Source: a virus
Reading direction: 5' to 3' (one strand)
IMG/VR virus record: IMGVR_UViG_3300029266_000979
Location: 1-32,452 of that record
Length of the DNA: 32,452 nucleotides
The notes beneath the pieces are model-generated. The model saw only the letters and a program-made list of their open reading frames with translations. It was not told the DNA's origin and searched no databases. This document shows, in pieces, positions 29,649 to 32,452 of this stretch (the first letter of the stretch is position 1; the number at the start of each line of letters is the position of its first letter). The translations under genes were made by a program, and so were the position numbers.

Positions 29649-30086
29649 ATGGCATATAAAACAAAATATTCACCACAAAATCCCCAAAAGTATATAGGGA
29701 ACCCAAAGAACATAATTTGTAGATCTTTATGGGAAAGGAGAGTATGTAGGTTTCTTGACGAAAATATAAAGATCATTAGATGGGGTTCTGAAGAATTACA
29801 TATTCCATACTATTCTCCTGTGGATAGAAAGAATCACAAATATTATCCAGACTTCATTGTAGAAAAGGCTGACGAAAGTGGAGAAGTAAAAACACTTATA
29901 ATTGAAGTCAAACCAGATAAGCAAACTAAAAAACCAAAACAGCCTAAAACTAAGAGTAAAAACTATATTAGAGAATGTATGACGTATGAAGTTAATATCG
30001 CTAAATGGAAAGCAGCAAAAGATTACTGTTCGACCAAAGGTTGGGAATTTATTATAGTTACAGAAAAAGACATTTTCTCCAAATAA
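29649..30086 (+). CDS. gp4: Head completion protein gp4-like, nuclease fold (145 aa)
   Basis: T4 gp4 (also called gp50 or 65 in some maps) is needed to finish DNA-filled heads before tail joining. The protein matches it along its length: YSPQNPQKYIGNPKNII, RSLWERRVCRFLDEN, RWGSEELHIPYYSP, HKYYPDFIVEK, IIEVKPDKQTKKP, then KWKAAKDYCSTKGWEFII and TEKDIF. The Glu in LWE, the PDF aspartate and the E-x-K in IEVKP fit a TnsA-like PD-(D/E)xK nuclease core. Length is close to the T4 protein (about 150). It is the only non-tail gene recognised in the window and is first in the plus operon. Confidence 0.93.
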   Translation: MAYKTKYSPQNPQKYIGNPKNIICRSLWERRVCRFLDENIKIIRWGSEELHIPYYSPVDRKNHKYYPDFIVEKADESGEVKTLIIEVKPDKQTKKPKQPKTKSKNYIRECMTYEVNIAKWKAAKDYCSTKGWEFIIVTEKDIFSK

Positions 30087-30111: not shown

Positions 30112-30696
30112 ATGTCACAATTCGGAAATCCTCTAACAAATGCAATAAACAATGCCGTAAGTCAGGCTCAAAATATAGGATTCAAAAAAGTTCAGTCTAG
30201 GACAAAAACTCCTAGTCAAATTTTCGACAAGTATTCGTTTGATATAATAATAACTCCTCCAGCGGGGCTAACACCAAAAGCGAGTGCGGCTGGGGATTTT
30301 CATCCCCTAACATGTACAACACCAACAAAGAGAATAGCATCAGACGAAAAAACCCTATGGGGTCCTGTCTATAATGTTCCATATTCTAGGCTGTATAGTG
30401 GTGATTTTGAAATGAGTTATCTATACAATCAAGACTTTCATGATTTTATCATGAAATGGTCAGAAATAGTAATCAACAACAACACAGATAAAGCAAATTA
30501 TTATGATGATATCATAGGAAATATCGAGATAAGATATCATAGCAGAGATAATACTAAATCAACAACATATAAGTTGAATGATGTATTCCCTCTGTCTATA
30601 AATGGTCTTGAACTTGATATGTCCGGGACAAATTCATATCAGACAGGAACAGTATCATTCTCATTCAGAGATTTTGATCTAACTATAGGAAACTAA
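30112..30696 (+). CDS. Tail-tube-fold protein, gp19/gp54-like (194 aa)
   Basis: The order of strands fits the tail-tube family: KYSFDIIITPP near residue 40, TCTTPTKRIAS near 65, VPYSRLYSGDFEMSYLYN near 88, DFIMKWSEIVI, then a C-terminal block with VFPLSINGLELDMSG and VSFSFRDFDL. The C-terminal pattern (Y/F-P-x-S-I-x-x-L-E-L ... V-x-F-x-F/Y-R/D) is shared by gp19 tubes and gp54/gp48 initiators. It has no second gp19-like gene beside it in the window. Placement next to gp26-like and tape-measure genes favours a baseplate-tube initiator, but a tube role cannot be excluded. GGAG at 30101-30104 is 7 bases from the ATG. Confidence 0.78.
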   Translation: MSQFGNPLTNAINNAVSQAQNIGFKKVQSRTKTPSQIFDKYSFDIIITPPAGLTPKASAAGDFHPLTCTTPTKRIASDEKTLWGPVYNVPYSRLYSGDFEMSYLYNQDFHDFIMKWSEIVINNNTDKANYYDDIIGNIEIRYHSRDNTKSTTYKLNDVFPLSINGLELDMSGTNSYQTGTVSFSFRDFDLTIGN

Positions 30697-30698
30697 CA

Positions 30699-31421
30699 AT
30701 GAAAATAGGTGAAATGTTGAGATCGGAATTGCCAGAGTATGCTGTAACTATTCCATCTATAGAAAATAAATTATCCTTTAGACCATTCTTGGTAAAGGAA
30801 GAAAAAACTTTACTATTGGTTGCTGAAGAAGGAAATGAAATTGACGTATTAAGAACAATTAAGAACATTATAATGTCTTGTTATTCTGATCTAGATTTAA
30901 ATAAAATTTCTATGGGAGAAGCAGAATATCTTTTCGTTAAACTAAGAGAGAAATCTATAGGTGAAAGTTTAGAACTAATTTATACTCATGGTGTAATCAA
31001 AACTCCAATGAATCTCGATCTAAGGAAAATAAAAATTCCAAAGAGAACAGGCAATAATCAAAATACGTTTAATATAACAGAAAACATTTCCATTACGATG
31101 CGAGAACTGAATATGAACGATGTGATTAGGGAAGAAATTAAAGTATGGACTCCCGATCAGGATGATTATATTAAGATGATAGCCTCTATGATTGATACAA
31201 TTACAATCAAAGAACAATGTTTATCTGGAACTGATCTTTCAATTAAAGATAAAGTTGACTTTGTTGAATCTATGACAGAAAAACAATTTAAAGAATTGGT
31301 TAAATTTGCAGATGGTGCGCCAAAACTAAGTCATAAAATGAAGATAAAGATAGATACTGAAGAAAAAACATTAGAAATAAATGGACTAAATGATTTTTTC
31401 GGCTTAGTGTCTCCCACATGA
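30699..31421 (+). CDS. gp26: gp26-like baseplate hub assembly / tail chaperone protein (240 aa)
   Basis: The N-terminal half matches the T4 gp26 family (T4_baseplate): YAVTIPSIENKLSFRPFLV, KEEKTLLLVAEEGNE, and GEAEYLFVKLREKSIGESLE near residue 85. T4 gp26 is 208 residues and is needed for hub assembly. The second half is helical by appearance, with KVDFVESMTEKQFKELVKF. The stop overlaps the next ATG (ATGA). Codons 233-234 form the end of a T TTT TTC heptamer in the correct phase for -1 slippage into the next open frame. With the tape-measure gene immediately downstream, this looks like a G/GT-type chaperone locus. The SD AGGA is 8 bases from the ATG. Confidence 0.88.
   Translation: MKIGEMLRSELPEYAVTIPSIENKLSFRPFLVKEEKTLLLVAEEGNEIDVLRTIKNIIMSCYSDLDLNKISMGEAEYLFVKLREKSIGESLELIYTHGVIKTPMNLDLRKIKIPKRTGNNQNTFNITENISITMRELNMNDVIREEIKVWTPDQDDYIKMIASMIDTITIKEQCLSGTDLSIKDKVDFVESMTEKQFKELVKFADGAPKLSHKMKIKIDTEEKTLEINGLNDFFGLVSPT
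31394..31400 (+). other. Candidate -1 ribosomal frameshift heptamer
   Basis: The heptamer T TTT TTC is read as (GA)T TTT TTC in the gp26-like frame, which is the X XXY YYZ phase. The -1 frame has a TGA at 31391-31393, directly before the heptamer, and is then open through 31418 and on to the stop at 31574-31576. Slippage would give a 292-residue fusion: 234 residues of the gp26-like protein, six linker residues, then the 52-residue small protein. Only a weak four-pair stem (TCCC 31412-31415 with GGGA 31429-31432) is visible downstream. Confidence 0.5.
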
Positions 31422-31576
31422 ATCTAGAGGGATTTATGAAATTGGTGTTTCAGATGATGCATCATTATAGGTATTCATACTCAGAAATAATGAATTGGAT
31501 ACCGTGGGAAAGAAATGTCTATATCTATCAATTACAGGCTTGGTTGCAAGAAGAAGAAAGACTCAAGAAAAAATAA
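31418..31576 (+). CDS. Small basic-acidic tail assembly protein (52 aa) or frameshift extension
   Basis: Sequence features are FQMMHHYRYSYSEIMNWIPW near residues 11-30, then NVYIYQLQAWLQ and a charged EEERLKKK end. It resembles in style the short 'S-Y-x-E-I-M-x-x-P/W' helical proteins that follow tail chaperones in contractile-tailed phages, possibly equivalent in position to T4 gp51. There is no SD before the ATG at 31418. An internal in-frame ATG at 31436 has AGAGGG (31426-31431) 4 bases away and would give 46 residues. It could therefore be made by coupling, by internal initiation, or as the tail of a -1 frameshift fusion with the gp26-like gene. Function is inferred from position. Confidence 0.7.
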   Translation: MNLEGFMKLVFQMMHHYRYSYSEIMNWIPWERNVYIYQLQAWLQEEERLKKK

Positions 31577-31589
31577 TTAGAAAGTAGAC

Positions 31590-32452
31590 ATGGCAGACAC
31601 ACCACCTAAAAAAACTCAAAAAGAAATGAAGGTTCTCAGAGAACAGGAGAGAACCTATAAGTTGATGCAGAAGACCATGAAAGAAATGAGGTCTGATAAA
31701 CGAACGCCATCAGTAGCAGGCAAAAAATTAAACAAAAAGAATGTTGCTGATATGAAAGGGCCTGACTCCCGAAAGGATGTAGATGAGTTTGCTCCGGAAT
31801 TAGAAGGTGTACTAAAGGTAGCAAAAGAAAAAACAAAGGAAGGCGCTGGCAATCTTAAGGATAGCGTTATTTCTGCGATACCTGGCGGTCAAACAGCAAA
31901 GAAACTCGCTGGTTTTTTTACACAACGAAGGTTGATAAAAAAAGCAAGAGAAAAGGCGGCAGACTTCAGGAAAAAATATAATACACTGATACAACAATCA
32001 GCAATCAAACATCCCGTTGGATTTAGTAAATTTAATGATGCGGTTAAAAAATCATATAAGGGTGATGATAATATACATGAAGTTATGGTTGACACCCTCG
32101 TTAAGATGGGTGTGACAACAGCAGACGAGTTAGACACGTTATTCAAACAATTAGAAGGTAATGTATCAGACGATGCTGTAGCAACTGCAATTTCTTCTGA
32201 AGTTTCAAAAGCAGGTTTTGAAACTAAATCTGGAGGCTTATCGGGAATGTCCGCTTTAGGTGGTAGTGGTAGTGGTATTGCTGGTGCAGGAAGTTCCGGT
32301 GTAGGTGGTAGTGGTAGTGGTGGTGCGGAAAGTTCCGGTGTAGGTGGTCTACAAACATCAGCGGGATCAGAACTTGCTCTTAATAATATTTCATCATCAC
32401 TAACAACACAAACAGTATTATTGGAAGATATTAAGAAAGCAGTGTCCTCCCC
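31590..32452 (+). CDS. Probable tail tape-measure/hub protein, gp29-like N-terminus (partial)
   Basis: The frame is open from the ATG to the right edge, 287 complete codons. The N-terminal 60 residues are very basic and likely coiled (KKTQKEMKVLREQERTYKLM). A middle region includes QRRLIKKAREKAADFRKKYN. Residues 215-255 are a Gly/Ser linker with a tandem duplication. The last visible part, TQTVLLEDIKKAV, resembles the repeated 'LLEDI' segments of T4-like gp29 tape-measure proteins. Position directly after the chaperone-like genes is the standard tape-measure place. The SD is weak (GAAAG). The call is inferred from composition and context. Confidence 0.7.
   Translation, partial: MADTPPKKTQKEMKVLREQERTYKLMQKTMKEMRSDKRTPSVAGKKLNKKNVADMKGPDSRKDVDEFAPELEGVLKVAKEKTKEGAGNLKDSVISAIPGGQTAKKLAGFFTQRRLIKKAREKAADFRKKYNTLIQQSAIKHPVGFSKFNDAVKKSYKGDDNIHEVMVDTLVKMGVTTADELDTLFKQLEGNVSDDAVATAISSEVSKAGFETKSGGLSGMSALGGSGSGIAGAGSSGVGGSGSGGAESSGVGGLQTSAGSELALNNISSSLTTQTVLLEDIKKAVSS
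32257..32348 (+). repeat. Imperfect tandem duplication encoding a Gly/Ser linker
   Basis: Two copies of about 40-45 bases, each starting TAGGTGGTAGTGGTAGTGG, sit side by side. A 19-base stretch is identical at 32291-32309 and 32330-32348. The copies encode GGSGSG and SSGVGG in the probable tape-measure protein. Confidence 0.88.

Follow-up and report, generated by a model that had tools for sequence, protein, structure and literature searches.

The gp26-like gene near the end of this viral DNA very probably encodes two tail assembly chaperones, a short one and, by −1 ribosomal frameshifting at a slippery heptamer close to the gene's 3' end, a long one. The window, by which we mean the whole stretch of DNA analysed, is a virus record of 32,452 bases. 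Its relevant features are as follows.

30112 to 30696, + strand: tail-tube-like protein, directly upstream of the chaperone gene (phrog_45, tail tube, E 3.8e-15; phrog_3629, E 6.9e-11).
30699 to 31421, + strand: gp26-like short tail assembly chaperone (TAC-N type), 240 amino acids, with the 0-frame stop TGA at 31419-31421.
31394 to 31400, + strand: slippery heptamer T TTT TTC, 0-frame codons TTT TTC and −1 codons TTT TTT (identified by conservation and codon constraint).
31394 to 31576, + strand: −1-frame extension, a gp51-like C-terminal domain (phrog_634, phrog_150, tblastn, and fusion lengths).
31418 to 31576, + strand: 52-residue ORF with its own ATG (31418), which overlaps the 0-frame TGA (ORF listing).
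31590 to 32450, + strand: candidate tape measure protein (by position), 287 codons, open at the contig end.

The 3' end of the gp26-like ORF reads ...AAT GAT TTT TTC GGC TTA GTG TCT CCC ACA TGA. Direct reading of the sequence shows that the heptamer (31394-31400) precedes the 0-frame stop and has the X XXY YYZ phase, and that the −1 frame opens exactly there, its last stop before the heptamer being the TGA at 31391-31393. It remains open over 31394-31573, is closed by the TAA at 31574-31576, and encloses the 52-residue ORF, whose ATG is preceded by GTGTCTCCCAC, with no Shine-Dalgarno motif. The heptamer and its phase, the last −1-frame stop before it, and the 52-residue ORF with no Shine-Dalgarno motif had been noted in a sequence-only reading of the same DNA, and all were confirmed. 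A start at ATG 31418 by reinitiation is possible, yet not needed. The predicted fusion comprises 30699-31400, followed by re-reading from 31400, and has 234 + 58 = 292 amino acids. The gene order is tube, chaperone, candidate tape measure, with the upstream tube gene placed by family match and the tape measure gene by position. Pfam and PHROG-type family searches gave no strong match for the ORF at 31590-32450, which is cut by the contig end, and we infer its role from position only; in the relatives HTVC008M and Cr30, the tape measure is annotated one gene further on.

In the mechanism we propose, most ribosomes would stop at the TGA at 31419-31421 and release the 240-residue short chaperone. 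At 31394-31400, a minority would slip from TTT TTC to TTT TTT, continue beyond the 0-frame stop in the −1 frame, and complete a 292-residue fusion whose added C-terminal domain would be small and helical. If lambda gpG/gpGT is a guide, many copies of the short form would bind and coat the tape measure protein, and a few copies of the long form would recruit tail tube subunits via the extra domain.

Conservation of the site was assessed in 97 loci, comprising 80 IMG/VR loci picked solely on 0-frame protein similarity, 4 nearer IMG/VR loci, 12 phages, and the window. In this comparison with relatives, which the sequence-only reading had proposed, the heptamer, its phase, and the −1 frame were kept in 97/97 loci: an in-phase T TTT TTY lies at the 3' end of every gp26-like gene, at protein identities down to about 25-30%, as T TTT TTC in 79 and T TTT TTT in 18, and the −1 frame always runs into the same gp51-like domain. 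The hosts of phages with the site include cyanobacteria, Pelagibacter, Methylophilales, Sinorhizobium, Caulobacter, Stenotrophomonas, Aeromonas, and Vibrio. Six further phages beyond the 97 also carry the heptamer (P-SSM5, Vibrio phage Bakedbeans, Delftia phiW-14, a Nitratidesulfovibrio phage, Stenotrophomonas Bhz51, and Aeh1).

Relatives with the overlap and no heptamer had been named beforehand as evidence that would speak against frameshifting. The full heptamer was present in all 97 loci; a partial exception was found among distant relatives, in Pseudomonas phage Cygsa01 and the Ackermannviridae (L105, L108, L109, and L112), where ATT TTC or CTT TTT (NTT TTY) takes its place. The Ackermannviridae examined were Salmonella SH19, Erwinia phiEa2809, and a Vibrio phage. 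In these phages the −1 frame is still open and encodes a homologous stretch, and the SH19 product matches phrog_634 (E 0.003). Because the homologous −1 frame is kept, we read the exception as slip-site turnover, and NTT TTY may be a weaker slip site, like the GTTTTT of other families (PMC12846349).

Both parts of the predicted fusion have identifiable relatives. The short product matched PF12322 (E 3.3e-43, 148 bits against a cut-off of 24.5) and phrog_150, annotated as baseplate hub (E 8.7e-47), and profile alignment with T4 gp26 gave E 5.8e-17 over 204 columns. The −1-frame stretch matched phrog_634, the gp51 family, over residues 2-59 (E 2e-17), as well as the C-terminal end of phrog_150, the gp26 family (E 0.006). 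Because the phrog_634 match covers residues 2-59, its start lies at the slip site, ahead of the ATG that opens the 52-residue ORF. A tblastn search with the −1 stretch found matches in 475 phage records, with at least 80% of the stretch covered in 463, and among the matches listed the alignments start at residue 1, which is the slip site. Profile alignment of −1 products gave E 1.3e-5 with T4 gp51 and E 3.8e-8 with Aeromonas 31 gp51.

The correspondence with T4 extends to the domain boundaries. The phrog_150 match of T4 gp26 (208 amino acids) ends at column 235, as does that of the window's short protein; T4 gp51 (249 amino acids) matches phrog_150 to column 280 and also matches phrog_634. Since T4 gp51 matches the gp26 family through the extension and phrog_634, it is a paralogue of gp26 with the extension in frame. 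The domain that a −1 frameshift would join to the gp26-like protein, as claimed from the sequence at the outset, is therefore the one that is fused in frame in T4 gp51, which supports the claim.

AlphaFold models were calculated using alignment rows from the window and IMG/VR only. The model of the short protein had a pLDDT of 90.9, and the best structural matches of its N-terminal half were 3fgx (Z 6.5) and 2ob9, the HK97 tail assembly chaperone (Z 6.0 over 86 residues); in the same comparison 5ir0 gave Z 4.4, and unrelated rows gave 2.4 or less. The values for 3fgx and 2ob9 agree with assignment of the modelled protein as a chaperone, and are too low to stand alone. A structure search with the 60-residue C-terminal model returned nothing above noise, and PDB sequence searches found no credible relative.

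Immediately 3' of the heptamer, the −1 frame starts to show a coding signal, which continues across the 0-frame stop. Mean column entropy at −1-frame codon positions 2, 1, and 3 was 0.83, 1.34, and 1.59 bits, respectively, over +7 to +24 counted from the heptamer start; this region spans the 0-frame stop, which partly fixes one column per phase, and the pattern goes on past the stop. A comparison of Shine-Dalgarno matches at −1-frame starts was uninformative, since control gp26 starts, too, mostly lack a 4-base match. These observations bear on whether there are two separate genes, the 52-residue ORF being translated from ATG 31418 by termination-reinitiation at the ATGA to give a free gp51-like small protein. 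The ATGA overlap is present in the window, L105, L107, L108, and L111 have TAATG or TGATG overlaps, and gp51 is usually listed as a separate gene in public annotation. Nevertheless, the first 15 codons of the −1 frame contain no ATG, GTG, or TTG at 25 of 95 loci, and no ATG at 33 of the 95, and the frame is under coding constraint from the slip site onwards, before any start codon is reached. Reinitiation would also leave the invariant heptamer and the in-frame fusion of T4 gp51 unexplained, and we consider it very unlikely.

Ribosomal frameshifting at the heptamer is favored further by codon use at the site. The two Phe residues (F233 and F234) are invariant; the codon before the T run is always NNT (AGT, GAT, AAT, GCT, or TCT), and the residue it encodes varies. 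The first Phe codon is TTT in 97/97 loci, compared with 72% TTT in the same genes, and the second is TTC in 79/97, compared with 28% TTC. Under the genes' own codon use, log10 P was −9.4 for the preceding NNT and −7.3 for TTT at the first Phe, in a test of 51 clusters (one sequence per 70%-identity cluster) that were assumed to be independent, so that P is approximate. Outside this site, 3 of 21,728 codon positions in these genes have a T TTT TTY in phase. As a string, TTTTTTY is not unusual in the window (21 seen, 27 expected); it is the place, phase, and conservation of the heptamer, not the string alone, that are beyond chance.

A weak possible RNA stem was located 3' of the slip site.

31414 to 31445, + strand: weak possible RNA stem, −10.2 kcal/mol, z −0.78.

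The downstream RNA of the window folds no better than shuffled sequence (z −0.78, or +0.30 with 60 nt), in keeping with the initial description of the visible stimulatory structure as weak; a 3' stimulatory structure is not required in all known −1 frameshift cases. In 53 representatives, the 45-nt stretch 3' of the heptamer had a mean z of −1.43, compared with −0.18 for background windows (Mann-Whitney P 4e-7, with mononucleotide shuffles), and strong hairpins were found in L012 (z −2.6) and L106 (z −4.5). An 11-bp hairpin of the GTATGGCTCA...TGAGTCATAC type, starting ∼5 nt past the slip site, is found in a cyanophage group and is absent from the window; the loci with hairpins are L012, L106, L063, L082, and other cyanophage loci, where the structure occupies about +12 to +42 after the heptamer. 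RNAalifold identified no stem common to the whole family, and Rfam gave no match. Excess pairing was confined to one diagonal, +13 to +19 with +35 to +41, and is probably carried mainly by a cyanophage subset. GGAG-type strings lie upstream of the site in many relatives, where they code for a conserved Glu-Gly.

A change of frame during transcription, with the polymerase and not the ribosome slipping on the T run, is extremely unlikely: a run of 6 to 7 T could slip in principle, but this run is only that long and its seventh base is C in 79/97 loci, the strict X XXY YYZ phase and the selection on the base ahead of the two Phe codons agree with slippage of tandem tRNAs, and a hairpin follows the site in many relatives. 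We can practically dismiss the view that the poly-T is a functionless by-product of a conserved Phe-Phe in an AT-rich genome, with the overlap as ordinary gene packing, for although Phe-Phe is invariant and TTTTTTY common in the window, the preceding wobble base is T across five different codons, TTT followed by TTC runs counter to the codon preference of these genes, the site persists in phages whose surrounding codons are GC-rich (DLP_6, phiW-14, and Bhz51), and the −1 frame encodes a conserved gp51-like domain.

With ribosomal frameshifting as the preferred reading, we compared phages in which the two forms are encoded by one gene or by two. By homology, T4 gp26 and gp51 are the same two protein forms, gp26 being the short one and gp51 a gp26-type domain with the gp51 C-terminal domain; T4 has two genes and no slippery site, whereas the window has one gene with a slippery site. 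Short and long gene pairs are also found in Aeromonas phage 31, a Krischvirus, and an Acinetobacter phage, and the slippery signal is absent from the end of the short gene in 4/4 phages with separate genes 26 and 51 (these three and T4). RB43 has a long form together with a neighbour of the short type. A tree built from the shared domain places the single-gene proteins on one side of a branch with support of 100/99 and the gp51 long forms on one side of another, with support of 99/98; two Straboviridae groups, represented by Aeromonas Asswx_1 and the Vibrio schizoT-even phages, cluster with the single-gene side. Since the tree is unrooted, the direction from frameshift to duplication is one that we infer.

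A 2010 survey reported gp51 as missing from Aeh1 and, in cyanophages, as having only about 20% of its normal length (Sullivan et al. 2010, PMC3037559). We found an unannotated gp51 domain in Aeh1 (L113:2160-2369), in the −1 frame behind T TTT TTC, with the first start codon of that frame about 20 codons past the slip site. The conserved frameshift would explain both reports, the domain being reached by slipping and neither truncated nor lost. Taking these comparisons together, we think it likely that frameshifting is the ancestral and prevailing route to both chaperone forms in T4-like and Ackermannviridae-type phages, that the T-even lineage swapped it for duplication (gene 26 short, gene 51 long), that in another branch T TTT TTY gave way to NTT TTY at the slip site, and that the small cyanophage gp51 and the missing Aeh1 gp51 are annotation artefacts. 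In hundreds of marine phage records, the C-terminal part is either listed as a small protein in its own right or left out, and the long chaperone is missed.

A frameshifted tail chaperone pair is a known trick of long-tailed phages, and poly-T signals have already been described. The E/E' frameshift of phage P2 has the same position and logic as the site in the window, and the slippery sequence of lambda differs from the window's T TTT TTC. In lambda gpG/gpGT (PMC5009743), as proposed for the window, the gene is a neighbour of those for the tail tube and the tape measure (a candidate in the window), and slipping by −1 close to its 3' end appends a C-terminal domain; no sequence similarity was detected between the two. 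A chaperone frameshift at GTTTTT has been described in Vandenendeviridae and Andersonviridae (PMC12846349), which share with the window a conserved −1 frame and a T run at the 3' end of the short chaperone gene. Their T-run signal is shorter than that of the window and nearer the NTT TTY of Ackermannviridae, and the comparison is one of frame and signal. The G-T frameshift was described as widely conserved "except T4" in a 2016 review (PMC5009743); the conserved frameshift would explain this exception, the T4 branch having its two products in two genes.

The sequence-only reading knew of no description of frameshifting for T4-like gp26. A description in kind does exist, to judge from papers that cite Vladimirov, Gautam and Davidson 2022 (Virology 566:9): as represented in PMC10885494 and PMC12846349, that study covers T4-like tail assembly chaperones and poly-T signals. 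The PRFect paper (PMC10885494), in the passage citing it, refers to T4-like phages with a short gene and a fused long gene, and not frameshifting. The new parts of the present analysis are most likely the breadth of conservation and the slip-site turnover.

Other features of the window were noted in passing. Positions 1-29623 hold, on the − strand, a long tail and baseplate module (wedge, tail-fibre-like, and tube-cap families) in which the genes, among them two with 1,523 and 1,931 codons that have weak family matches or none, run on the reverse strand. Just before the tube and chaperone genes, 29649-30086 encodes a protein with a TnsA-like endonuclease fold that is classed under T4-type head closure (phrog_218, E 2e-54). 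A Gly/Ser-rich repeat stretch lies at 32240-32350 (GGSGSGIAGAGSSGVGGSGSG), within the candidate tape measure gene.
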